DNA of 64,000 nucleotides. Origin: Candidatus Sulfotelmatobacter sp. GTDB lineage: Bacteria > Vulcanimicrobiota > Vulcanimicrobiia > Vulcanimicrobiales > Vulcanimicrobiaceae. The stretch is from the NCBI GenBank assembly GCA_035504415.1, contig DATJRY010000021.1, positions 62,001 through 126,000 of the forward strand, given 5' to 3'. The position numbers and the translations under genes are program-made. Of the stretch, positions 2,271 to 62,573 are shown piece after piece (within the stretch, counting starts at the first letter, position 1; each line of letters opens with the position of its first letter). The notes beneath the pieces are model-generated. The model was not told where the DNA came from, ran no database searches, and saw only the letters and a list, made by a program, of their open reading frames with translations.

Positions 2271-3661
2271 CGCGCGGCGACCGCCGCCGGCACGAGCGTC
2301 CCGTAGAAGTCGAAGGCGGTGTTGCCGTCCAGGCGCACGTCGACGAAGGTCCCCGGCTCCGCCTCGCCGGCGAACGCGATCACGCCGTCGACCCCGGGCG
2401 CCTCGCCCATCGAACGGCCGACCAGCACCGACTGCGTGCGCAGCCCGACCGCCAGCGGATCGGTGCGGCGCAGCGTGCGCCGCTCTTCGACCAGCACCGG
2501 CACGACCTGACCCAGCCGCGCGGCGCGCGCGCGCTCCGAGGCGCGACGCTGCGCGTCACGCAGGCGCAGCAGCCGGCGCCGCTTCTCGCGCTCGGCGACC
2601 TGACCGCCGAGCTGCGCGCCCGGCGTTCCGTCCTCGCGTGAATACGTGAAGAACCCGACCCGGTCGAGCGCGGCGCGCTCGATCCACGACTCCAGCTCGG
2701 CGACGTGCTCCTCGGTCTCGCCGGGGAAGCCGACGATGAACGTCGAGCGCATCGTGATGCCGGGGACGCGCCGGCGGAAGTCCTCGACGATCTCGAGGTA
2801 TCGCTCGCCGTTCGCGGGCCGCAGCATCCCGCGCAGCACGGCCGGGCTGACGTGCTGCAGCGGCATGTCCATGTAGGTGCAGACCTTCGGCAGCGACGCC
2901 ATCGCGTCGATCAGCTCGCTGTCGACGGTCGCCGGGTAGAGGTACAGCAGGCGAATCCAGACCAGCCCGTCGATCTCGTGCAGCCGGTGCAGCAGGTGCG
3001 CCAAGCCGCCGCGGCGCCAGCCGCGGTCGCGGCCCCACATCGAGGTGTCCTGCGCGATGAGGATCAGCTCTTTGGTGCCGCTGGCCGCCAGCGCGCGCGC
3101 CTCGGCCAGGATCGACTCCTCGCTGCGCGAGCGGAAGCCGCCGCGCAGCTGCGGGATGATGCAGAACGTGCACGGGTGATCGCAGCCTTCGGCGATCTTC
3201 AGGTACGCGGTCGCCGAGGGCGTGGTGATCAGGCGCGGCAGAAAGTCGTGCTCGGGCTCGGCTTCGAAGCCCAGCCGCACCGGTTTGCGCCCGGCGCGCG
3301 CGTCGTCGAGCAGGTCGACGATCGAAGCGTACGCGCCGGTTCCGATGACGCCGTCGATCTCGGGGATCAGCGATTGCAGCTCGTCCCCGAAGCGCTGCGA
3401 GAGACAGCCGGCGACGATCAGCTGCTGCCCGGCGCGTTTGCGCTCGGCGTGCTCGAGGATCGTCTCGGTCGACTCGGCCTTGGCCGGGTCGATGAACGCG
3501 CAGGTGTTGATGACGACCGCGTCCGCCTCGTCGGCGTCGGGCACGAGCGACCACCCGGCGGCACCGAGCTTCGCGATCATCACCTCGGAATCGACGAGGT
3601 TCTTCGCGCAGCCCAGCGACACGAACGAAACGGTGGGGGTCTTCTCTGCGAGAGCGCTCAC
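2267..3661 (-). CDS. rimO: Ribosomal protein S12 methylthiotransferase RimO
   Basis: 464 aa radical-SAM enzyme that methylthiolates a conserved aspartate of ribosomal protein S12. The N-terminal UPF0004 domain has three cluster cysteines (C18 in SLGCAKN, C54 in INTCAF, C86 in VAGCLSQ). The radical-SAM motif is CDHPCTFC (C160, C164, C167), and a C-terminal TRAM-like domain ends the protein. SLGCAKN and AEGCDHPCTFCIIP are diagnostic of RimO rather than MiaB. The frame is open for another 106 codons upstream, but that part lies over yajQ and is not coding. The GTG at 3661 puts the conserved SFVSLGCAKN at the normal distance from the N-terminus and sits 11 nt after the yajQ stop. Confidence 0.95.
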   Translation of the reverse strand: MSALAEKTPTVSFVSLGCAKNLVDSEVMIAKLGAAGWSLVPDADEADAVVINTCAFIDPAKAESTETILEHAERKRAGQQLIVAGCLSQRFGDELQSLIPEIDGVIGTGAYASIVDLLDDARAGRKPVRLGFEAEPEHDFLPRLITTPSATAYLKIAEGCDHPCTFCIIPQLRGGFRSRSEESILAEARALAASGTKELILIAQDTSMWGRDRGWRRGGLAHLLHRLHEIDGLVWIRLLYLYPATVDSELIDAMASLPKVCTYMDMPLQHVSPAVLRGMLRPANGERYLEIVEDFRRRVPGITMRSTFIVGFPGETEEHVAELESWIERAALDRVGFFTYSREDGTPGAQLGGQVAEREKRRRLLRLRDAQRRASERARAARLGQVVPVLVEERRTLRRTDPLAVGLRTQSVLVGRSMGEAPGVDGVIAFAGEAEPGTFVDVRLDGNTAFDFYGTLVPAAVAAR

Positions 3662-3672
3662 GCCGACAACAA

Positions 3673-4164
3673 CTACCTGTAATTCACGAACTGCAGGGGC
3701 AGCTCGTAGTCCAGCCCCTTGAGGAGCTGAATCACCTTTTGCAGATCGTCCTTGGACTTGGCTGAGACCCGGATCTGCTCGTCCTGGTATTGCGCCTGGA
3801 CTTTCAGCTTGGCGGCCTTGATGGCCTCGATCAGCGCTTTGGATTTGTCTTTCGGAATCCCGGCGCGCACGACAACTTTTTGCCGCAGTGCTCCGCCCGA
3901 GGCGTTCTCCGGCTCTTTCACCTCGAAGGCCTTCAGGTCGATCCCTCGCTTGACCGCCTTGGACTGGACGATGTCCCACACGTTCTTGAGCTTGAGCGCG
4001 TCGTCGGCGAGCAGCGTGATCGTTCCGTTCGCTTCTTCGATCGACGCGATCGAGTTCTTGAAATCGAAGCGGCCCGCGATCTCTTTGCGGGCCTGGTTGA
4101 GGGCGTTGTCGAGCTCTTGCTCATCGACGCGCGAAACGACGTCGAACGAGGAGTCGGAGGGCAT
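3673..4164 (-). CDS. yajQ: YajQ family nucleotide-binding protein (DUF520)
   Basis: 163 aa, the usual length of the family. It begins MPSDSSFDVVSRVDEQEL and shows the typical KNSIASIE and RVSAKSKDDLQKVI segments, ending at LQFVNYR. YajQ proteins bind nucleotides; in Xanthomonas a member is a cyclic-di-GMP receptor, which is worth noting because a c-di-GMP locus occurs later in the window, but no link is shown here. It lies between rodZ (21 nt upstream) and rimO (11 nt downstream) in one minus-strand run. The start ATG is preceded by GAGGA about 10 nt upstream. Confidence 0.93.
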   Translation of the reverse strand: MPSDSSFDVVSRVDEQELDNALNQARKEIAGRFDFKNSIASIEEANGTITLLADDALKLKNVWDIVQSKAVKRGIDLKAFEVKEPENASGGALRQKVVVRAGIPKDKSKALIEAIKAAKLKVQAQYQDEQIRVSAKSKDDLQKVIQLLKGLDYELPLQFVNYR

Positions 4165-4185
4165 AGCGGGTGGGTCCTCGGGGTC

Positions 4186-4929
4186 TTACAGGGTGTAGCG
4201 CTGTTCGACGACGTCGCCCGATTTGCCGAGCGGCGGGAGCGTCCGTCCGTCGACCACGAGCCGAACCCCGCCGGCGTTGCCGATCCGAACGTCGGCGACG
4301 TGGCCGGTGAACGACTTGGCGGTTCCGGCCGGTAACGTTCCTTCGACGACGGTCGTCCCGTCGACCGTGACCCGCACCCAGGAGGGCTCGGTCACGTGCA
4401 GCGCCAGCTGGTGCTTGGGCGCCGGCGTCGGGCTGACGGTCGGCGCCGGGCTGGGACTGGCCGACGAGGCCGCGTCGGGCGCCGTCCCGGCCTGGGACCC
4501 GCTCGCCGTCCCCTGCGGTTGCGGCGCGGCCGTGGCCTGGGCGACGTCGCTCGGACCGTTCTGGGTGTACGAGAAATATTCGAAGGCGACGAACCCGACC
4601 AGCAGCAGCGCGACCAGAATCCCGCCGATCGCCCACGGCGAGAGCCCGCTGCGCTCGCGCTCGGCGGTGACGACCGGCGCCGTCGCCGGGCGCTCGCTGG
4701 GCGCCGTCTCGTTGAACTCGGCGACGGCTGCCTCGGCGTCGAGACCGAGGAAGCGCGCGTAGGTGCGGATGAAGCCGCGCACGTAGACCGGGGCCCCGAT
4801 CGCGGGCCAGTCTTCCGTCTCGATGGCGTGCAGATAGACCGAACGGATGTGGATCTGTTCGGCGACGTCCGAGAGGCTGAGCCCGCGCGCTTCCCGCGCG
4901 CTTCGGAATCTCTCCCCGAGCGCAGGCAT
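4186..4929 (-). CDS. rodZ: RodZ-like HTH membrane protein (HTH_25 + DUF4115)
   Basis: 247 aa. Residues 5-68 form the RodZ/HTH_25 helix-turn-helix (GERFRSAREARGLSLSDVAE and VYLHAIETEDW). A single membrane helix at about 97-117 follows, then a Pro/Ala/Ser/Thr-rich extracytoplasmic linker (130-172) and a C-terminal DUF4115 domain (175-245, VTEPSWVRVTVDG). RodZ anchors MreB to the membrane in cell-shape control; the architecture matches, but no mre genes are in the window, so the role is assigned by domain order alone. First gene of the minus-strand envelope/translation run, divergent from mnmA with a 50 nt gap that must hold both promoters. Confidence 0.85.
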   Translation of the reverse strand: MPALGERFRSAREARGLSLSDVAEQIHIRSVYLHAIETEDWPAIGAPVYVRGFIRTYARFLGLDAEAAVAEFNETAPSERPATAPVVTAERERSGLSPWAIGGILVALLLVGFVAFEYFSYTQNGPSDVAQATAAPQPQGTASGSQAGTAPDAASSASPSPAPTVSPTPAPKHQLALHVTEPSWVRVTVDGTTVVEGTLPAGTAKSFTGHVADVRIGNAGGVRLVVDGRTLPPLGKSGDVVEQRYTL

Positions 4930-4979
4930 GACCGCACCTTTGCGGGCGCACCCCGTTCTCCTGGTCGCGTGTTACAGTC

Positions 4980-6068
4980 GTGGAGACGATGACGGAGCGC
5001 GTGCGCGTCGTCGCCGCGATGAGCGGCGGCGTCGATTCGGCGGTGGCGGCCGGCCTCTTGGTGGAGGCCGGCTTCGACGTGCTCGGCGTCACCATGAAGA
5101 TGTACGCGCCGACGAAGCCCGCGCACGCGAAGTCGTGCTGCGGCGCCGACGACTTCGACGACGCCCGGCGCAGCGCGGCGGCGCTGGGGATTCCGCACTA
5201 CGTGCTCGACTTCGAGGAAGCGTTCCGGCGCGGCGTCGTCGAGCGCTTCGCGCGCGACTACGCCGCCGGCCGCACGCCTAACCCGTGCGTCTCCTGCAAC
5301 AACGAGGTCAAGCTGGGCACGCTGCGCGCCTACGCCGACCGGCTGGGCGCGCGCTACGTCGCCACCGGCCACTACGCGCGGCTCGAGCACGGCACCGACG
5401 GCCCCCACTTGTATCGCAGCGCGTCGGCCAAGGACCAGGCCTACGCGCTGGCGCAGCTGACGCCGGCCCAGCTGGGCAGCCTTCTCCTTCCGCTCGGCGA
5501 GGCGACCAAGGAACAGACGCGCGCGCATGCCGCCCGCCTCGGACTGCCGGTGGCCGAAAAGACCGAGTCGCAGGACATCTGCTTCGTCGAGGGCGGCGAC
5601 TACCGCGACGTGCTGGCGCGATTGGCGCCGCAGACCGCGCGGCCGGGCGTCGTGGTCACCAGCGACGGCGCGGTGGTCGGCGCGCACGCCGGGATCGGCG
5701 GCTACACGGTCGGCCAGCGACGCGGCTTGCCGGCCGGCGAGGGGCCGCGTTACGTGACGCGCGTCGACGCCGCGACGAACACGATCGTCATCGGGCGTGA
5801 AGACGAGCTGGGCGTCGACGGTCTGATCGCCGACGAGCTCAACCTGATCCGCCCCGAACGTTTCGCCGGCGGCGCCGCCGACGTGCTGGCGATGACGCGG
5901 TATCGCGCTCGTCCGGCCGCGGCGCGCGCGACCGTCGCCGGCGACGGCACGCTGCGGCTCGCGTTCTTGGAACCGCAGCGCGCGGTCAGCCCGGGCCAGC
6001 TGGTCGCGCTGCTCGATCTCGGCGGCGACGAAGTGCTCGGCGCGGCGACGATCCGCTCCACCACCTGA
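4980..6068 (+). CDS. mnmA: tRNA-specific 2-thiouridylase MnmA
   Basis: 362 aa enzyme that puts sulfur on U34 of tRNA(Lys, Glu, Gln). The PP-loop SGGVDSAV is at 15-22. The catalytic cysteines are C103 (in [11 protein letters not shown]) and C201 (in SQDICFVEG), the expected positions for the persulfide/disulfide pair. HYAR, KDQAY and the C-terminal barrel ([24 protein letters not shown]) are conserved. The start is either GTG 4980 or ATG 4989; neither has a strong Shine-Dalgarno sequence, and the longer form is given. A strong terminator follows 20 nt after the stop, so it is probably monocistronic. Confidence 0.95.
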
Positions 6069-24392: not shown

Positions 24393-25037
24393 ATGGAAAG
24401 CTCGGTCGCGCGGCTCGATTGCGAGCGCCGTGAGCGCACCGGCGTTCCCGAGGTGATCTTCGCCGCCGGGAAGACGCTGGAGCAGAACATCGCCTTGGTC
24501 GGCGCGCTGTACGCGCGCACCGGCTTCGCTTTGGCGACGCGCATTCCGGCCGAGCAGCGGGCGCCGTTGGCGGCCGCTTATCCCGATGCCGTGCTCGACG
24601 AGGTCGCCGGCGCGCTGCGGCGCGGCGCGTTGCCGCGCACCCGCCAACGGGTCGCCGTCGTCTGCGCCGGAACCTCCGATCTGCCGGTCGCGCGCGAAGC
24701 GGCCTTCACGCTCGACGCGCTCGGCGAGGACGTCCTGCAGGCGACCGACGTCGGCGTCGCCGGCGTGCATCGGTTGTTCGACGTCCTCGACGACGTGCGG
24801 GCCTGCCGCGCGGTGATCGTCGTCGCCGGGATGGAGGGCGCGTTGCCCAGCGTCGTCGCCGGTTTGGTCACCGCGCCGGTCGTCGCGGTCCCGACCAGCG
24901 TCGGCTACGGCGCCGCCTTCGAAGGGATGGCGGCGCTGCTCGGGATGCTGACGGCGTGCGCGCCGGGCATCGGCGTCGTCAACATCGACAACGGCTTCGG
25001 CGCCGCCGCGCTCGCGCACAAGATCGTCTGCGCATGA
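24393..25037 (+). CDS. larB: Nickel-pincer cofactor biosynthesis protein LarB
   Basis: 214 aa, carboxylates and hydrolyses nicotinic acid adenine dinucleotide to pyridinium-3,5-biscarboxylic acid mononucleotide. The AIR-carboxylase-like fold shows VPEVIFAAGKT, CAGTSDLPVAREA, DVGVAGVHRL, VVAGMEGALPSVV and PTSVGYG, all typical of LarB. The N-terminus is shorter than in many homologues (the conserved R-x2-RTG-x-PEVIF begins near residue 13). Upstream codons in frame would read into the 60-bp divergent gap, so the short ATG form is preferred. First gene of larB-larC-larE. Confidence 0.9.
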   Translation: MESSVARLDCERRERTGVPEVIFAAGKTLEQNIALVGALYARTGFALATRIPAEQRAPLAAAYPDAVLDEVAGALRRGALPRTRQRVAVVCAGTSDLPVAREAAFTLDALGEDVLQATDVGVAGVHRLFDVLDDVRACRAVIVVAGMEGALPSVVAGLVTAPVVAVPTSVGYGAAFEGMAALLGMLTACAPGIGVVNIDNGFGAAALAHKIVCA

Positions 25038-26263
25038 CCGCGTCGACGCGCGTCGCCTACGTCGAGATGATCGGTGGCGCGGCCGGCGACATGCTGTTGG
25101 CGGCCTTCTTGGACGCCGGCCTCGACGCAACGGCGCTCGAAACGGCGCTGCGCGGCGTCGTCGCCGACGGTTGGAGCTTCACGCCGGAACGGGTCGTCAA
25201 GCGCGGCATCGCCGCCACCTACGCGCGACTGGTCGTGCCCGGCGAAGACGGCGCGCCCGATCACGATCACCACCATCACCGCGGACCGCGCCGCACGCTG
25301 GCCGACGTGTTGGCGATCGTCGAACGCAGCGGGTTGACGCCGCGCCAGCGCGAGCGCGCGAGCCGCGTCTACCGGCGGCTCGCCGAAGCGGAAGCGCGCG
25401 TCCACGGCGTCGACGTCGACCGCATCCACTTCCACGAGATCGGGCAGATCGACGCGATCCTCGACGTGGCCGCGTTCTGCGTCGCGCTCGACCTGCTGGA
25501 GATCGACGAGGTGCGCTGCTCGGCGTTCCCGATCGGACACGGCACGATCCGCATGGAACACGGCACCTATCCGAACCCGCCGCCGGCGACGGCCGAGCTG
25601 CTGCGCGGCTGGCCCACCCACGCGGTCGACGTCGCCGGCGAGCTGGTGACGACGACGGCGGCCGCGATCCTGACGACGCTCGCCGCGCCGGGCGGCCGTC
25701 CGGACGTGGTCGTCGAGCGCATCGGCTACGGCGCGGGGACGAGCGACTTCTCCGTCCCCAACGTGACGCGCGTCTCGATCGGGACGCTGACCGCCGCCGC
25801 GGCGCCGCCGGACGCCGAGCGCGACGAGATCGTCGTGCTGGAAGCGAACGTCGACGACCTCGCGCCGCAGCACTTCGAGCTCGCGCTCGAACGGATCTTC
25901 GCGGCCGGCGCGCGCGACGCGTGGCTGACGCCGATCGTGATGAAGAAAGGCCGCCCCGCGATCTTGCTCTCCGCCATCGCCGATCCGTCGGCCGAGGACG
26001 CCGTCGCTCGCGCGATCCTGCGCGAGACGACGACGATCGGCGTGCGCGTGCGCACCCAACGCCGCTACGTCTTGCCGCGCCGCATCGTGACGATCGAAAC
26101 CGCCTACGGTCCGGTGCGCGTCAAAGAGGTCTCACTCGACGGCACCGTGCGCGCGCAGCCCGAGCACGACGACCTGGTGCGCATCGCGCGCGAGCGCGGC
26201 GTACCGCTGCCCGAGGTCGCGCGCACCGTCGCGCGCGCGATCGACGCCGGGGCGCGCGTATGA
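25034..26263 (+). CDS. larC: Nickel insertion protein LarC
   Basis: 409 aa. LarC uses CTP to insert nickel into the pincer nucleotide. It begins MTASTRVAYVEMIGGAAGDMLLAAFLDAG; a histidine-rich loop DHDHHHHRG (near residues 76-84) is the expected nickel-handling element. VHFHEIGQIDAI-like sequence, ATAELLRG and VLEANVDDLAPQHFE follow. A single uninterrupted ORF here contrasts with the frameshifted larC1/larC2 of Lactobacillus. The start overlaps the larB stop as ATGA. Confidence 0.92.
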   Translation: MTASTRVAYVEMIGGAAGDMLLAAFLDAGLDATALETALRGVVADGWSFTPERVVKRGIAATYARLVVPGEDGAPDHDHHHHRGPRRTLADVLAIVERSGLTPRQRERASRVYRRLAEAEARVHGVDVDRIHFHEIGQIDAILDVAAFCVALDLLEIDEVRCSAFPIGHGTIRMEHGTYPNPPPATAELLRGWPTHAVDVAGELVTTTAAAILTTLAAPGGRPDVVVERIGYGAGTSDFSVPNVTRVSIGTLTAAAAPPDAERDEIVVLEANVDDLAPQHFELALERIFAAGARDAWLTPIVMKKGRPAILLSAIADPSAEDAVARAILRETTTIGVRVRTQRRYVLPRRIVTIETAYGPVRVKEVSLDGTVRAQPEHDDLVRIARERGVPLPEVARTVARAIDAGARV

Positions 26264-27084
26264 TCGAAGCGGCCGCGACGCTGGCCGACAAGGAGGCGCG
26301 TCTGCGCGCGATCCTGCGCGAGCTGGACAGCTGCATCGTCGCCTTCTCGGGCGGCGTCGACTCGGCGCTGGTGCTGCACGTCGCCTCGCAGGAGCTGGGC
26401 GAACGCGCGATCGGGATCACCGCGCGCAGCGAGTCGCTGGCCGAGCGCGAGTACGCCGGCGCGCTGGACTTCGCGCAGACGACCGCCGCGCGGCACGAGG
26501 TCGTCGAGACGCGCGAGCTGGCCGATCCGAACTACGCGGCGAACCCGGCCGACCGCTGCTACTTCTGCAAGAGCGAGCTGTACGGGACGCTCGAGCGGAT
26601 CGCGCGCGAGCGCGGCGTCGCGGCCATCGTCGACGGCTTCAACCGCGACGACGACGGCGATTGGCGGCCGGGTCGCAAGGCCGCGCGCGAGCACGGGGTT
26701 CGCAGTCCGCTCCACGAGGCCGGCCTGACCAAAGCCGACGTGCGTGCGCTGGCCCGTTCGCTGGGGCTGGCCGTGTGGGACAAACCCGCGCTGGCGTGTC
26801 TGTCCTCGCGCTTCCCGCACGGCACGCCGATCACGCTCGAGCTGCTGCGCCAAGTCGACCGCGCCGAGCAGGCCGTCCACGACGCCGGCCTGCGCGCGTG
26901 CCGCGTGCGCCATCACGGCGAGCTGGCCCGCATCGAGGTGCCGCCGCCGGACATCGCCGCCGTCGCCGACCCCGCGCGGCGCGAACGCATCGTCGCCGGC
27001 GTGCGCGCCGCCGGCTACCGCTACGTGACCCTCGACCTCGGCGGCTACGCGACCGGCGGCGGCTTCAACGCGCCGATCGGCTAA
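26260..27084 (+). CDS. larE: Pincer cofactor sulfur transferase LarE
   Basis: 274 aa, PP-loop enzyme that adds the two sulfur atoms to the pincer precursor. The PP-loop is SGGVDSA (30-36). Three cysteines are notable: C100 and C103 in DRCYFCKSELY and C180 in ALACLSSRFPHG. In family members with three such cysteines an iron-sulfur cluster is thought to feed sulfur, instead of a single sacrificial cysteine, so this copy is probably of the cluster type (inference). Overlaps larC as ATGA and meets the Uma2 stop by 4 nt. No larA follows. Confidence 0.92.
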   Translation: MIEAAATLADKEARLRAILRELDSCIVAFSGGVDSALVLHVASQELGERAIGITARSESLAEREYAGALDFAQTTAARHEVVETRELADPNYAANPADRCYFCKSELYGTLERIARERGVAAIVDGFNRDDDGDWRPGRKAAREHGVRSPLHEAGLTKADVRALARSLGLAVWDKPALACLSSRFPHGTPITLELLRQVDRAEQAVHDAGLRACRVRHHGELARIEVPPPDIAAVADPARRERIVAGVRAAGYRYVTLDLGGYATGGGFNAPIG

Positions 27085-27620
27085 CGGCGCAGCCGCGCGA
27101 AGAACGCCTCGATGTCGAGGGTGAAGCCGGGCAGCGCATCGAGCGTCACGACTTCTCCGCTCCAGTAGGTACGCGACCCGGCGGCATCGTGGGTGGTGAC
27201 GGTCCGGCTTTTCGGGTTCACGACGACGACGGCCGACGTTCCCGCGGCGAGATAGGTGGCGATCTTGTGCGAGACGTCAGCCGGACGATCGTCGGGCGAC
27301 AATACCTCGACCGCAAGGGTCGGGGCACCGATCGGCACCTGCACCGCGTCGTCGGGCGCATCTTCCGCCAATGCCTCGTAGGAGAGATAGGCGACATCCG
27401 GAACCAGCGGACGGACGATCTCGCCGGGCGGAGCGATGCGGAAGCGCCACTCCGTGCCGACCCGGCCGCACCGACCCGCATCCGCCCAATCCGCCAGCGC
27501 GCTGAACAGCAGGCCTTGCAGCCGCGCGTGATCGTAGGTCGGGCTCACTTTTTGCAGCGCCCGGCCGCGGACCCACTCGGTCTCCGGCTTGGTTTCCGGC
27601 AGAACGATCTCGTGCAGCAT
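27081..27620 (-). CDS. Uma2 family protein (DUF820), copy 1
   Basis: 179 aa, PD-(D/E)xK nuclease-fold protein. Visible family elements are VPDVAYLSYEAL, LAVEVLSPDDRP (Asp and Glu of the active site), HKIATYLAAG (Lys) and a late VVVVNPKSRTV strand. Its start LHEIVLPETKPETEW and RGRALQKVSPTYDHARLQ are identical in the copy at 31532-32071. Uma2 proteins are often present in many copies per genome; their natural function is unsettled. Convergent with larE. Confidence 0.88.
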   Translation of the reverse strand: MLHEIVLPETKPETEWVRGRALQKVSPTYDHARLQGLLFSALADWADAGRCGRVGTEWRFRIAPPGEIVRPLVPDVAYLSYEALAEDAPDDAVQVPIGAPTLAVEVLSPDDRPADVSHKIATYLAAGTSAVVVVNPKSRTVTTHDAAGSRTYWSGEVVTLDALPGFTLDIEAFFARLRR

Positions 27621-27703
27621 CTCACGTCACTCTATCACGCCGGTCACCCCGCCCGGCAAGAGTCGAGCGGCGAGGACCGCACGGGCGTCGAACCGGCGTG
27701 ATC

Positions 27704-27979
27704 GTGCCCCACACGATCCATGAGAAGACGAAGCTGCTCAACCGCGCGCGCCGGATCGGCGGGCAGGTCGACGCGATCGAGCGCGCGCTGGACGCCGAAA
27801 AGCCCTGCGGCGACATCCTCAACCTGATCGTCGCCGCCCGCGGCGCGATGAACGCGCTGATGGCCGAGCTGGTCGAGGAACACGTGCGCTCGCACCTGCT
27901 CTCGGGCGCCAAGCCCGGCTCCGCCCGTACGCAAGCCGCCGAAGAGCTGATCGACGTCGTCCGCGGCTACCTGAAGTAA
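27704..27979 (+). CDS. rcnR: RcnR-type metal-responsive repressor (CsoR/RcnR/FrmR family)
   Basis: 91 aa all-helical DNA-binding repressor. Two GTG starts are possible (27698 and 27704); 27704 gives MPHTIHEK, which places His at position 3 and lines up with E. coli RcnR (MSHTIRDK). With that start the metal ligands known for RcnR are all present at the same numbers: H3, C35 (EKPCGDIL), H60 and H64 (EEHVRSH). FrmR lacks H3 and H64, so nickel or cobalt sensing is more likely than formaldehyde. A perfect G-tract palindrome lies 20 nt downstream, before mgtC. The name is a family call and not a claim of orthology. Confidence 0.85.
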   Translation: MPHTIHEKTKLLNRARRIGGQVDAIERALDAEKPCGDILNLIVAARGAMNALMAELVEEHVRSHLLSGAKPGSARTQAAEELIDVVRGYLK

Positions 27980-27998
27980 GGGTCGCCTCACTTCCATG

Positions 27999-28023
27999 TA
28001 GGATACCCTAGGGGGGTATCCTA
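27999..28023. promoter_or_regulatory. Predicted RcnR/CsoR-type operator
   Basis: Perfect 10-bp inverted arms TAGGATACCC (27999-28008) and GGGTATCCTA (28014-28023) around TAGGG. The site contains a six-G run (28011-28016) next to A/T-flanked ends, the pattern of RcnR and CsoR operators (G/C tract within an inverted repeat). It lies between the repressor gene and the mgtC promoter, 10 bp upstream of the -35. Confidence 0.8.
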
Positions 28024-28032
28024 TTCTGAGGA

Positions 28033-28060
28033 TTGACTTACGGCGTCGACTGAGTATGAT
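28033..28060 (+). promoter_or_regulatory. Sigma70-type promoter for mgtC
   Basis: -35 TTGACT (28033-28038) and -10 TATGAT (28055-28060) with 16-bp spacing; the mgtC ATG is at 28102, so the predicted leader is about 35 nt. The adjacent operator gives a straightforward way for the repressor to control transcription. Confidence 0.7.
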
Positions 28061-28101
28061 TGGCGGGGCTCGCACGCGCGTGCCGGCTTTGGAGCCACCT
28101 T

Positions 28102-28827
28102 ATGACGATCATCGAGTTCGCGACGCGTCTGGTCGTGGCGGTGCTCTTGGGCACGGTCATCGGACTCGAGCGTCAATATCGCCAGCGTATGGCCGGCCTG
28201 CGCACCAACGCCCTGGTCGCGACCGGGACCTGCCTGTTCGTTACCATCACGCCGCTGGTCGGCGGGGGCGCGCTCAACGCGACGCAGATTCCCGCCTACG
28301 TCGTCTCCGGCATCGGCTTTCTGGCCGGTGGCGTCATCTTCAAGGAACGCTTGAGCGTCAGCGGACTCAACACGGCGGCGACGATCTGGTGCACGGCGGC
28401 CATCGGCGCGCTGGTCGGGATCGGCGCGATCTGGTACGCCGTGATCGGTGCCGCCGGCATCTTGTTCGCCAACGTCGTGCTGCGCCCGATCGCGCAGACG
28501 ATCAACCGGCAGTCCGCCGAAGACACCGAGATCGTCTCGAGCTACGAAGTCCGCGCCGTGTGCCGCGGCGACGCCGAGGATCGCGTGCGGGCCGCCGCGA
28601 TCGCGGCGATCAAGGGCAACGGTATCGTCTTGCAGGCCGTGTACAGCGCGGATCTCGACCCGGCCGAACGGGTCGAAATCGTCCTGGACGCGAGCGCGAC
28701 CGGCCGCGCCGACGCGCGGATGGAGACGATCGTGCAGCGGATCGCCGTCGAACCGGGCGTCACCGCCGTCAGCTGGAAGCTCGTCCCGACCGAGGACGAC
28801 GAGAAAACGCTGCTCGCCGAGGCGTGA
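28102..28827 (+). CDS. mgtC: MgtC/SapB family membrane protein
   Basis: 241 aa. Four to five membrane helices fill residues 5-130, with the MgtC signature GLERQYRQRMAGLRTNALVATG and YVVSGIGFLAGGVIFKE. A soluble ACT-like C-terminal domain covers about 148-235. MgtC proteins are linked to low-magnesium growth and to membrane-potential or ATP-synthase control in pathogens; here control by a putative nickel/cobalt-type repressor is unusual. The ATG at 28102 is chosen because GGAG lies 7 nt upstream; a longer frame reads back into the promoter. Followed after 46 nt, with no terminator, by the barrel gene. Confidence 0.92.
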   Translation: MTIIEFATRLVVAVLLGTVIGLERQYRQRMAGLRTNALVATGTCLFVTITPLVGGGALNATQIPAYVVSGIGFLAGGVIFKERLSVSGLNTAATIWCTAAIGALVGIGAIWYAVIGAAGILFANVVLRPIAQTINRQSAEDTEIVSSYEVRAVCRGDAEDRVRAAAIAAIKGNGIVLQAVYSADLDPAERVEIVLDASATGRADARMETIVQRIAVEPGVTAVSWKLVPTEDDEKTLLAEA

Positions 28828-28873
28828 GTATCCTTACTGTCGCGATAACGTCAACCAGGGAGCCTTCGCAGAG

Positions 28874-30814
28874 ATGACACCGGGAGCACTCCGGCTACTG
28901 CTCGCCGCCGGCACCGCGGGCGCGTTCGTCGCCGCCGGCACCGCCGGCGCGCGTGCCCAGCCCGCGGCGACGCCGAGTCCGGCCGCATCGACCGCACCGA
29001 CCACGACGGCAGCCTCACCGACGCCACGGCCGGGGACGATTCGCCTGGGCATCGACGCGCACACCAGCTTCATCAGCGACGGCACGGCCGGTCCGGGACA
29101 GTTGCCGCCGGAGCGGTTCGGGTTCGCAAACGGCAACCCGCTCTCGCCCGAAGTACCGTACGACACGCTCTCGAGCGCGCCGCTGGTCCCCGGCAACGCC
29201 GCCGAGTCCGCGCTCTATCTGCGCCCGACGTACTACGGCCGCGCGTTCGACCTCGCGGCGACGCTCGGCGTGGGCTACGTCGACGGCAGCGTGACCAACG
29301 CGGCGTACTGGGGCGAGCCGATCTTCCCCACCCTCAACCCGCACGCCGGCAGCCAGGCGCTGCCGTATGCGATCGTCTTTCCGACGCACCCCGGCCAAGA
29401 CGACGGCGACGCCTTCGTCGCGTCGGTCCTCTCCGGTTCGATCGCGACCAAAGACGGCAACCTCGTGCTGCGCGGCGGCTGGTTCGACCTCACCCAGAGC
29501 GCGCAATTCGTGTTCGTGCAGCCCGCGTTGACCAGCGTGAATCCCGCGATCGGCGTGGCCACGCCGGAAACGCTCGGTGACGGGCCCGCCAATCTGGACG
29601 CGTGGACGGCGTCGCCGGCAGCGCTCTCGCTGCACGGCGTCGACTTGGTCGCCAAGCACGACCTCGCGACGCTCGAGCTCGCCGACGCCTCGCTGCCGAC
29701 GCTGCCGACGACGCCGGCCCGTATGCGCACGATCTCGCTGGTCGTCGACCACGGCGAAGGCACCCGCTACACGCTGCAGTACCTGCAAGTCGGTACCGGC
29801 GGCGACCTGGTTCCGACGACGATCCTCTTCGGCAGCGATCCGACGATCGAGACGACGCCGCAAGGCCCGTTGCCCAGCAGCGAGATCGGCGCGCAGACGC
29901 AGCACGTCTTCGGCGCGTCGGCGACCTTCCACGCCACGCGCGCGTTCGACGGTATCGTCGAGCTGGGTGACTCGACGTATGCCGCCGACGACGTCGCGGA
30001 GCCCGGGACCGGCCACGCCGGCAGCTACCTGCACGCCGGCCTCTCACGCACGATCGGACGCTTCAGCGCGAACCTGGACGTCTATCGTAACAGCGCGTAC
30101 TACGCCGACATCCTGCTCCCGTACGGCGTCCCCGAGAACGTCTGGAGCGTCGCGTGGTCCTGGCCCGGACAGTGGCTCAAGTCGAACTATCAGCTGATCG
30201 ACGACTATCCCGTCAACATCGACCGGCAGGGCTATCGCATCCGGGCGAACCTCAAAGGGCCCGGCAGCCCGCTCGACGTGCGCGTCTCGTACGCGAACTT
30301 CGGGCAGATCAGCCCGATCACGTACGCGAACGCGCTGACGACCGGCTTCATCGACGGCTTCTTTCTGCCGCAGCCCGACGACGCGGCGACGCTCGGCCGC
30401 CAGCACCAATACGCGCTCTTCGCGGGCTGGCACCCCGCCTTCGGCGATCTGACGCTCGATCTCACCGAGGACACGATGCGCCGCCCGTTCCTCACCGGCG
30501 ACGCCGCCGACAACGTCGGCTACGACACCAATGCCGCCGTCTTGAGCTTCTCGCGCCGCGTCTCGACACGATTGCTGGCGACCGTGGGGTTGGCGCGTTA
30601 CGGCATGCGCGGCAGCTTCGGCGCCGCGACGACCAACGTCGACTTCTGGCAGCGGACCGGCTTCGCCGGCGTCGAGCTCGTCGAGAGCCCGCGGTTCAGC
30701 GCGCTGCTGTCCGTGCGCCGCGGCGCGTTCTGGGGCATCCCCACCGTCCCCGAGGGGCCGCCGCCGAGCTTCACCGGCACGCTGCTCGTCTTCGAGCAGC
30801 GCTTCCACGTATAA
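28874..30814 (+). CDS. Predicted outer-membrane beta-barrel protein, unknown function
   Basis: 646 aa. A signal peptide (about 1-29, ending near ARA) is followed by an Ala/Thr/Pro-rich linker to about residue 53. The rest alternates polar and hydrophobic residues, with many Tyr, Trp and Phe at regular spacing, as in a porin barrel, and it ends FEQRFHV. No annotated family was recognised. The gene lies 46 nt after mgtC without a terminator, so it is probably in the same transcription unit and under the same operator. That makes it a candidate metal or solute channel, but the cargo is not shown. Confidence 0.7.
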   Translation: MTPGALRLLLAAGTAGAFVAAGTAGARAQPAATPSPAASTAPTTTAASPTPRPGTIRLGIDAHTSFISDGTAGPGQLPPERFGFANGNPLSPEVPYDTLSSAPLVPGNAAESALYLRPTYYGRAFDLAATLGVGYVDGSVTNAAYWGEPIFPTLNPHAGSQALPYAIVFPTHPGQDDGDAFVASVLSGSIATKDGNLVLRGGWFDLTQSAQFVFVQPALTSVNPAIGVATPETLGDGPANLDAWTASPAALSLHGVDLVAKHDLATLELADASLPTLPTTPARMRTISLVVDHGEGTRYTLQYLQVGTGGDLVPTTILFGSDPTIETTPQGPLPSSEIGAQTQHVFGASATFHATRAFDGIVELGDSTYAADDVAEPGTGHAGSYLHAGLSRTIGRFSANLDVYRNSAYYADILLPYGVPENVWSVAWSWPGQWLKSNYQLIDDYPVNIDRQGYRIRANLKGPGSPLDVRVSYANFGQISPITYANALTTGFIDGFFLPQPDDAATLGRQHQYALFAGWHPAFGDLTLDLTEDTMRRPFLTGDAADNVGYDTNAAVLSFSRRVSTRLLATVGLARYGMRGSFGAATTNVDFWQRTGFAGVELVESPRFSALLSVRRGAFWGIPTVPEGPPPSFTGTLLVFEQRFHV

Positions 30815-30830: not shown

Positions 30831-31511
30831 TCACATGGGCGGGACGGCGCCTTTTTCCCCGACCACGATGCGGCTCGCGACCCCGTTGACGTCGACGACG
30901 AAGACGTGCGCTCCCGGTTTCACCGCGGCGAGCGTCGCCGGACCCACCCGAACGATCGGCGTGCCGGGCTCGATCGCGATGACCTTCGAGCCTCCCTTGT
31001 AGCTGACGTCGACGACCTTCGCGCCGCCGGCGCTGGTCATGTGGGTGACGTTGGCGTTGGTCATCGAGGAGCCGCTCATCGCCATCGAACCGGACATCGA
31101 CGACATCGAGCCGCCGCCGACGGTGCCGTTGGTCATCGAGGACATGTGGCTGCCGCCGCCGGGGAGATCCCACGGATAGTCGCCCTCGCCGGTGCCGCGC
31201 ATGGCGGCGGGAAACACGACCACTTCGAGCGCGCGCGCGGTCTTGCCGGCCGGCACGTTGGCGCTGCCGATGAACGTCCCCGGCTTGACGTCGGCGATGC
31301 TGGCCGGGACGACGCCCGCGACGCGGACGGACGGCGCGAGCGGCAGCGAGACGTCGCCGTGCGCGGTCGCGACGGTGATCTGCTTGGCGGTGATCGCCTT
31401 GACCGTGCCGCGCACGTGCGTCATGGCGGGCGGCGCCGCCAGCGCGTCGGCACCGAGCGCGAGCACGGCCAGCGAAGAGACGAGAGCGGCGAGGGGACGG
31501 CGCAGTGACAC
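30831..31511 (-). CDS. Secreted Met/His-rich protein with DUF5666-like beta repeats
   Basis: 226 aa. A signal peptide ends near ALA (about residue 25). Two beta-rich segments (about 31-100 and 163-222) share the pattern of a Pro followed by V-KPG, suggesting an internal duplication of a small beta domain. Between them residues 122-158 hold 8 Met and 2 His in a Ser/Gly/Asn background, the pattern of soft-metal (copper or silver) binding loops. It is convergent with the barrel gene and starts beside the second Uma2. Metal binding is inferred from composition only. Confidence 0.7.
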   Translation of the reverse strand: MSLRRPLAALVSSLAVLALGADALAAPPAMTHVRGTVKAITAKQITVATAHGDVSLPLAPSVRVAGVVPASIADVKPGTFIGSANVPAGKTARALEVVVFPAAMRGTGEGDYPWDLPGGGSHMSSMTNGTVGGGSMSSMSGSMAMSGSSMTNANVTHMTSAGGAKVVDVSYKGGSKVIAIEPGTPIVRVGPATLAAVKPGAHVFVVDVNGVASRIVVGEKGAVPPM

Positions 31512-31531: not shown

Positions 31532-32071
31532 TCAGCGACGAGCGCGCGCGAAGAGCGCACCCACGTCGAGTGTGAACCCGGGTAATGAAGGATGTCTGAG
31601 CGTATCGCCCTCGCGCAGTACGGCGGTCGCGCCGTCGCGGACGATGATGGACTGCTGGCTCGGGTCGACGACGATGACGGCGCGCGTTCCGGCTGCGAGA
31701 TAGGTCGCAATCTTGTCCTCGACGTCCGGCCGGCGGTCGTCGGGCGAGAGCACCTCGACCGCGACCGTCGGCGGGGCCAGAGGAACTTGCACGGCGTCGT
31801 GCGGTGCGTCGGCTGCCAGATCATCGTACGAGAGATAGCCGACATCGGGAACGAGCGGGCGAATGACCTCGCCGGGAGGAGCAACCCGAAACCGCCACTC
31901 CGTGCCCACGCGACCGCGGTCACCGGCATCGGCCCACGCGGTGAGGGCGATCACCAGCAGCGACTGCAATCTGGCGTGGTCGTAGGTCGGGCTCACCTTT
32001 TGCAGCGCCCGGCCGCGGACCCATTCGGTCTCGGGTTTGGTTTCGGGAAGGACGATCTCGTGCAGCGACAT
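31532..32071 (-). CDS. Uma2 family protein (DUF820), copy 2
   Basis: 179 aa, the same length as copy 1 and nearly identical in its first 34 residues, including LPETKPETEWVRGRALQKV. It keeps VPDVGYLSYDDL, VAVEVLSPDDRR and DKIATYLAAG for the PD-(D/E)xK fold. ATG 32071 is preferred over an upstream GTG because GGGAGG sits 8 nt before it and the length then matches copy 1. Separated from RNase J on the same strand by 23 nt. Confidence 0.88.
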   Translation of the reverse strand: MSLHEIVLPETKPETEWVRGRALQKVSPTYDHARLQSLLVIALTAWADAGDRGRVGTEWRFRVAPPGEVIRPLVPDVGYLSYDDLAADAPHDAVQVPLAPPTVAVEVLSPDDRRPDVEDKIATYLAAGTRAVIVVDPSQQSIIVRDGATAVLREGDTLRHPSLPGFTLDVGALFARARR

Positions 32072-32094
32072 CTCACGCACCTCCCTTCACGACG

Positions 32095-61748: not shown

Positions 61749-62573
61749 TCAGCCGCCTTGCGCGACGATGCGCCGCGCGCCGGCCCGCCACATCAGCCCC
61801 GCCACGATCGCCAAGACGACCGCCCACACCGCTTGCACGCCGACCGCCGCGAGCCAGCCCGCGGGCGGAATGACGCCGACGTAGATCAACAGCGGGGTCG
61901 AGAACATGGCCGCGAACGGCAGCACGAAGACGATCTTCTGCAGCACGACCGGGAAGAGCACTAGCGGGATGATCTCGCCGCCCAACAGGTCGGTCAGCCA
62001 GGTGACGATCAGCTGGACCGCGCTGATCTCGAGCGTCCAGAAGGCCGTGCAGTTGAGGATGAAGTTGATCCAAAAACCGACCAGGTAGCCCAGCACGAAG
62101 CTGAGCGCGAACATCGCCAGGGTCGCCGCCGGCGGGACGTCGATGTGGACGACCAGCAGCGCCAGCACCAGCGACGGGACGATCAGCACCGCGTGGAAGA
62201 GCACCTCGCCGGTGCCGTCGGCGAAGAACCCCAACGCAACGTTGATCGGCTTGAGGAAGTCGCTCACGATCGTGCCGTCGTGCAGCCGGTCGTGCAGCGC
62301 GCGGGTCTGGTCGATGTCCATCACCAGGCCCATCAGCAGCGCCACCGCCGAGTAGGTGATCACCGCGTGCAGCGGCAGCTCGGCCGGCGTGGCATTGTGC
62401 GCGTAGAGCGCCGACCACACCATCTTCAACAGGTACAAGCGCACCAGCACCGAGCCGATGCTGGTGAACACGTCGAAGCGGTACGTCGCCTCGCGCGCCA
62501 TCGCCCGCGAGGCCAGCGCCAGGTACGGCGCCCAGCGAAATTTCGGCCGCGTCGTCGCGAGGGTGGCCGTCAC
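61749..62573 (-). CDS. ABC-2 type permease, subunit 1
   Basis: 274 aa, six helices, same DUF990-like family as its neighbour (LASRAMAREATYRFDVFTSIG and LHDGTIVSDFLKPIN). GTG 62573 gives a GTGA overlap with the ATPase stop, and the open frame further upstream is an ATPase shadow. Partner of the downstream permease in one heterodimeric exporter. Confidence 0.87.
   Translation of the reverse strand: MTATLATTRPKFRWAPYLALASRAMAREATYRFDVFTSIGSVLVRLYLLKMVWSALYAHNATPAELPLHAVITYSAVALLMGLVMDIDQTRALHDRLHDGTIVSDFLKPINVALGFFADGTGEVLFHAVLIVPSLVLALLVVHIDVPPAATLAMFALSFVLGYLVGFWINFILNCTAFWTLEISAVQLIVTWLTDLLGGEIIPLVLFPVVLQKIVFVLPFAAMFSTPLLIYVGVIPPAGWLAAVGVQAVWAVVLAIVAGLMWRAGARRIVAQGG

Follow-up and report, generated by a model that had tools for sequence, protein, structure and literature searches.

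We analysed a 64,000-nucleotide stretch of DNA (hereafter, the window) from Candidatus Sulfotelmatobacter sp., a soil-dwelling member of the poorly known phylum Eremiobacterota, in which the gene of an RcnR-family repressor precedes mgtC and the gene of a predicted outer-membrane β-barrel. The window corresponds to positions 62001–126000 of contig C21 in a 4.17-Mb genome bin that is 95.7 per cent complete (G000). The genes and sites of the cluster follow one another in this order:

27704–27979, plus strand: rcnR, repressor of the CsoR/RcnR (DUF156) family, GTG start, 91 amino acids (PF02583, 2.7e-21).
27999–28023, no strand: predicted RcnR-type operator, a perfect inverted repeat with 10-bp arms and a G-tract (footprint: similar sites upstream of rcnR in relatives).
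28033–28060, plus strand: predicted sigma-70-type promoter of mgtC and the barrel gene (10/12 consensus, 9 nt past the operator).
28102–28827, plus strand: mgtC, inner-membrane MgtC with a C-terminal domain (PF02308, 5e-34; PF21770, 6.7e-19).
28874–30814, plus strand: predicted outer-membrane β-barrel of 646 amino acids, family restricted to Eremiobacterota (distribution, alignment and predicted fold).

The repressor (residues numbered from the GTG at 27704) combines P2, H3, C35, H60 and H64 with Ile5. The PF02583 domain and the conserved Cys35 place it in the CsoR/RcnR family, and H3/C35/H60/H64 is the ligand set of the nickel/cobalt subgroup RcnR (PMC5146963). These four ligands had been recognized by an initial reading made from the letters alone (hereafter, the sequence-only reading), and alignment of the homologues from 149 Eremiobacterota genomes confirms them: all 18 close RcnR homologues keep the four residues. 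Residue 2 is Ser in 16 of the 18, Gly in one, and Pro only in the window protein. Of the curated models, that of FrmR gives the highest score (86.5 bits), followed by RcnR (61.3 bits, the cut-off of the NCBIfam RcnR equivalog being 138 bits), both below their cut-offs. The best match among solved structures is 5lcy, a FrmR; as its sequence has His at position 64, this is apparently the E64H protein of PMC5016687.

In the relatives, rcnR mostly heads an operon with either c14, a heavy-metal P-type (P1B) ATPase, or c7, a membrane protein of 210 amino acids with an invariant HX4DH motif, a His-rich loop in some members and no match in Pfam; by its motif, c7 is NiCoT/RcnA-like. A P1B-type ATPase beside rcnR in locus L065 (6824–8692) has an unusual metal-site motif, with GAC replacing CPC in TM4. 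The association with a nickel/cobalt exporter, in the same operon or behind an operator, holds for most relatives and is absent from the window: its genome has no c7 homologue, and neither of its two NicO genes has an operator nearby, by pattern or by weight matrix. The ligand set, together with the exporter genes that accompany rcnR in relatives, argues for a repressor that senses nickel or cobalt. Zn(II) or another divalent metal is a rather remote candidate for the effector. FrmR E64H, which has the same P2/H3/C35/H60/H64 set, answers Zn(II) and cobalt in cells (PMC4528141, PMC5016687, PMC5146963); set against this, the ligands are those of the nickel/cobalt RcnR, and relatives pair rcnR with an exporter of the HX4DH type.

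Pro2 and Cys35 form the formaldehyde-sensing pair of FrmR (PMC5016687). The window protein thus naturally joins residues shared with FrmR, FrmR(E64H) and RcnR(S2P), and its formaldehyde reactivity is possible. If it answered formaldehyde, alone or with metal, MgtC and the barrel would form an aldehyde- or metal-stress unit. The confinement of the pair to this homologue (the 17 relatives having Ser2 or Gly2), the rank of the FrmR model and the increased reactivity in vitro of Salmonella RcnR S2P (PMC5016687) favour this idea. However, the window repressor has Ile5 instead of the FrmR-specific Pro5, retains His64, and has no frmA or other formaldehyde dehydrogenase gene adjoining. Metal is the better guess for the effector, because Salmonella RcnR S2P does not respond to formaldehyde in cells and keeps its cobalt response (PMC5016687); we regard control by formaldehyde as the least probable of the alternatives considered here.

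The palindrome at 27999–28023 reads TAGGATACCC-TAGGG-GGGTATCCTA. It begins 19 nt past the rcnR stop codon, its arms are perfect over 10 bp and it contains the run of six Gs, as the sequence-only reading had described; shuffled versions of the window give an expectation of 0.04 such patterns. A G-tract inverted repeat of the ATACCC-N-GGGTAT type lies about 20–50 nt upstream of rcnR in all 17 relatives (17/17). On the basis of this phylogenetic footprinting, that is, sequence comparison, the palindrome can be predicted with good confidence to be the RcnR site, now located before mgtC instead of rcnR. Sites of the type ATACCC-N5-GGGTAT with at most one mismatch occur at 12 distinct positions in the related loci scanned (about 0.94 Mb in total), all of them just upstream of rcnR. 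The window genome has a single operator copy, the one before mgtC, and none at the usual place before rcnR. A second RcnR target in this genome was considered and rejected, since the pattern scan gave none and the weight-matrix scan gave none near the NicO genes and the magnesium loci.

The promoter that follows is composed of TTGACT (28033–28038), a 16-nt spacer and TATGAT (28055–28060), with 10 of 12 consensus positions, in agreement with the sequence-only reading; two promoter-like sites were found, compared with 0.1 in shuffles. An alternative promoter with its −10 box inside the palindrome was rejected for lack of an acceptable −35 box. In relatives of the genus g5, the operator stands between the divergent rcnR and an M-box riboswitch, and a promoter about 9–38 nt past the operator leads to the barrel cluster. 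Such an operator, next to the promoter of an M-box leader, suggests possible control by two metals in that genus.

The arrangement can be compared with the known RcnR–RcnA (DUF156) repressor–exporter operons for nickel and cobalt. The ligands, the G-tract inverted-repeat operator and the repressor family are alike; in the window, however, the presumed target is mgtC and the barrel gene rather than an exporter, the operator lies downstream of rcnR, and Pro2 replaces Ser2.

The MgtC protein has the PF02308 membrane domain and the C-terminal MgtC_SapB_C domain (PF21770), like MgtC of Salmonella and other organisms, and is 60–64 per cent identical to MgtC of the congener clusters. It differs from the Salmonella protein in falling below the cut-off of the NCBIfam MgtC model, and in its predicted control by a metal-sensing repressor instead of by low magnesium. 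The barrel gene follows after a gap of 46 nt in which no terminator-like site is present, as previously noted. The N-terminus of its product resembles a signal peptide. No match was found in Pfam, NCBIfam or PHROG, and none by sequence to solved proteins or to a named porin family. The prediction by AlphaFold2 is a β-barrel (pLDDT 75), and its Foldseek matches, whose TM-scores do not exceed about 0.5, are porins and receptors of the outer membrane, so that the identification of 28874–30814 as a barrel is upheld at the level of predicted fold. General and substrate-specific porins (chitoporin, the Occ family) likewise form, as is predicted here, a single large transmembrane barrel; the window protein differs from them in having no sequence relation to them and in being found in Eremiobacterota only. 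The family occurs in 43 of the 103 genomes of the order, and at 35 loci of the GTDB 220 collection, nearly all labelled Eremiobacterota, WPS-2 or unnamed bins. Judged by this distribution, it would represent a new outer-membrane family confined so far to Eremiobacterota, apart from loosely labelled bins.

The usual setting of the barrel gene in relatives is a magnesium cluster, in which an M-box is followed by the genes of NRMT (an NRAMP-type Mg2+ transporter), MgtC and the barrel. The NRAMP-family partner has DxxG or DxxA in TM1 and TxxA or TxxS in TM6, with Trp instead of His after the Pro of TM6, and by these motifs resembles NRMT, the Mg2+-transporting clade of NRAMP proteins (PMC8806188); an NRMT under M-box control is already known to transport Mg2+ (PMC4072509). 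The M-box–NRMT transporters of Clostridium acetobutylicum are comparable to the locus of the relatives, which adds MgtC and an outer-membrane barrel, and contrast with the window, which lacks both M-box and NRMT. The M-box (RF00380, 113–140 bits) lies upstream of many barrel clusters and directly before the barrel gene in several, an arrangement seen order-wide (for example, L087 5498–5666 and L093 5397–5581). It was found on the same strand, 36–3675 nt upstream, for 24 of 44 barrel matches, some of the others beginning at a contig edge; the chance of such an M-box is roughly estimated at about 0.001 per barrel. This excess makes it most likely that the barrel is an outer-membrane protein induced by low Mg2+, and its family a candidate for outer-membrane channels linked to Mg2+ in Eremiobacterota. 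The literature searched contained no report of an outer-membrane protein under M-box control.

M-boxes are present in 87 of the 103 genomes of the order and in all 10 of the other congeners sampled (10/10); none is detectable in the window genome. None was found in the window between 24000 and 33000, and a search under lax settings for an M-box remnant, in the window and around both magnesium-type loci of G000, was also empty, so that a remnant in the window was rejected. A locus on contig C6 of the same genome (L132, 3081–5696) encodes an MgtE_N/CBS protein and another NRMT but lacks the M-box, which is present at the corresponding loci of G093, G097 and G098. M-box control thus seems to have been lost entirely from the window genome.

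The cluster locus of congener G096, L083, has the order larB–larC–larE–Uma2–M-box–NRMT–mgtC–barrel–rnj. Window positions 24696–27669 align to L083 with 78 per cent DNA identity, and the alignment restarts within mgtC and runs on; mgtC and the barrel gene are orthologous to, and syntenic with, members of the magnesium cluster. The features involved are the following:

24414–27084, plus strand: larB–larC–larE, genes of the nickel-pincer cofactor (LarB, LarC1/C2 and LarE models above cut-off).
27081–27620, minus strand: Uma2-family gene between larE and rcnR (PF05685, 5.9e-22; same place in L083).
27670–28101, plus strand: segment with rcnR and the operator, in place of the M-box and NRMT of G096 (L083 homology ends at 27669).

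The counterpart of this last segment in L083 (2996–5712) holds the M-box (3171–3349) and NRMT (4043–5698). The locus appears to have undergone a regulatory swap, in which the riboswitch of a magnesium locus was replaced by a nickel/cobalt-type repressor, since mgtC and the barrel gene of relatives sit under an M-box with a Mg2+-type NRAMP. The nearest relatives of the window repressor are those of G091 and G099, the two congeners that have RcnR (tree support 89/84), where rcnR heads an operon with an exporter gene at another genomic location. The likely history is therefore that rcnR moved within the genus together with its operator, and that exporter, M-box and NRMT were lost.

The lar genes had been taken by the sequence-only reading as an additional clue to nickel, the mgtC unit being placed directly after larBCE. 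Neither point stands: the minus-strand Uma2-family gene, which had been missed, intervenes, and the same lar–Uma2 neighbourhood precedes the M-box version of the cluster in G096. The link to nickel through larBCE was therefore rejected, and the lar operon is best considered conserved synteny; larBCE genes also adjoin the M-box version in L090. A second minus-strand Uma2-family gene (31532–32080), whose protein is 70 per cent identical to that of the first, flanks the rcnR–mgtC–barrel unit on the other side, and the cluster is bordered by Uma2 genes in several congeners as well. Between the barrel gene and the second Uma2 gene, 30831–31511 encodes a protein of 226 amino acids with an apparent signal peptide and no match in Pfam, which is not present at the corresponding place in L083.

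The working that we propose, and hold at about even confidence, is a repression of mgtC and of an outer-membrane Mg2+-supply barrel that is relieved by nickel or cobalt. In the cluster of close relatives, M-box–NRMT–mgtC–barrel, the proteins would be made at low Mg2+. RcnR would now be made from a promoter without an operator of its own, and would bind the G-tract palindrome beside the mgtC promoter, so that mgtC and the barrel gene are repressed. Excess Ni(II) or Co(II), bound by the N-terminal amine, H3, C35, H60 and H64, would release RcnR, and MgtC and the barrel would then be made. Both Ni2+ and Co2+ are competitors of Mg2+ for uptake by transporters and for binding sites; given this competition and the M-box/NRMT ancestry, the benefit could be that Mg2+ supply and inner-membrane physiology are sustained under such conditions. 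The gene order, the identity and uniqueness of the operator, the ligands, the replaced segment, the lack of a detectable M-box and the linkage of the barrel to M-box and NRMT in relatives come from the sequences; repression, nickel or cobalt as the effector, a Mg2+-supplying role of the barrel and the advantage gained are what we infer here.

Several observations weigh against this scheme. To our knowledge, MgtC proteins are not established transporters. The exact order rcnR–mgtC–barrel is found only in the window genome among the phylum genomes. The centre of the operator is at about −56 from the predicted start, that is, upstream of the −35 box, and repression would thus need either another promoter or DNA wrapping, which has been proposed for the family of RcnR (PMC5146963). 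Losses of NRMT or MgtC have occurred in further congeners as well (G100, G092), and G100 keeps only a remnant of mgtC with no M-box upstream, which indicates that decay of the cluster is under way in the genus of the window. The remnant, the C-terminal part of the gene, adjoins an intact barrel gene (L079, 6679–6774). On account of these losses, the main rival explanation is that rcnR came to lie by chance in a magnesium cluster undergoing decay: M-box and NRMT were deleted, and rcnR with its operator landed there without its exporter and with little effect on mgtC and the barrel gene. The single occurrence and the position of the operator are compatible with it. We nevertheless consider it unlikely, as the perfect 10-bp-arm operator lies 9 nt from a good promoter, is the only copy in the genome, away from its usual place before rcnR, and is followed by two intact genes.

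The combination of a nickel/cobalt-type sensor with mgtC and the barrel, presumed new by the sequence-only reading, was not found elsewhere in the 149 phylum genomes; joined same-strand neighbours rcnR and mgtC are absent from 72,556 plasmid records, for which only such neighbours were counted, and no RcnR–MgtC link is described in the literature searched. The genes themselves are linked to magnesium by ancestry. As to relatives, the exact gene order is conserved in none, but the linkage of mgtC with the barrel and the neighbourhood of rcnR and barrel recur. In seven other genomes (G009, G010, G019, G021, G023, G025 and G118), rcnR adjoins the barrel gene or NRMT. Five of these belong to genus g5 and have the barrel; G010 has kept NRMT beside rcnR and lost barrel and M-box; in G118, from another family, the barrel gene is divergent from rcnR–c7 and no M-box was found. 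Between the operator and the barrel or NRMT, the leaders in G118 and G010 contain terminator-like hairpins and short open frames of about 45 codons (at about 9100–9400 in L199, and between the operator and NRMT in L071, no M-box being found there), which possibly represent another leader control. An ABC-type nickel importer beside rcnR in g5 (c6/c2/c11) was considered and rejected, as the sequences resemble those of housekeeping genes (mutL and miaA, for example).

The presence of rcnR next to the barrel gene or NRMT in three arrangements (g5, G118 and the window) might also mean that the barrel and MgtC handle nickel and cobalt themselves, the barrel passing these metals across the outer membrane and being controlled by RcnR as a metal gene. 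This is improbable, more so than chance neighbourhood: where upstream DNA is readable, most barrel genes stand under the Mg2+ riboswitch and are linked to a Mg2+-type NRAMP, and a close RcnR is lacking in many of the genomes that have the barrel. Extended to the phylum, the scheme of relieved repression becomes tentative: a Mg2+-dedicated outer-membrane channel under the M-box would have been tied to RcnR in several lineages, and in the window genome the riboswitch would have been lost, leaving nickel/cobalt stress alone as inducer.

The locus would provide a clean natural case, at a single syntenic position, in which a protein repressor with another metal as its signal has taken over from a riboswitch; such a swap opens the evolution of metal regulons to testing. 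The repressor is a natural protein with the P2/H3/C35/H60/H64 set, which mutagenesis had earlier brought together in the laboratory variants FrmR(E64H) and RcnR(S2P). For the Eremiobacterota, the cluster points to a candidate family of outer-membrane channels linked to Mg2+.

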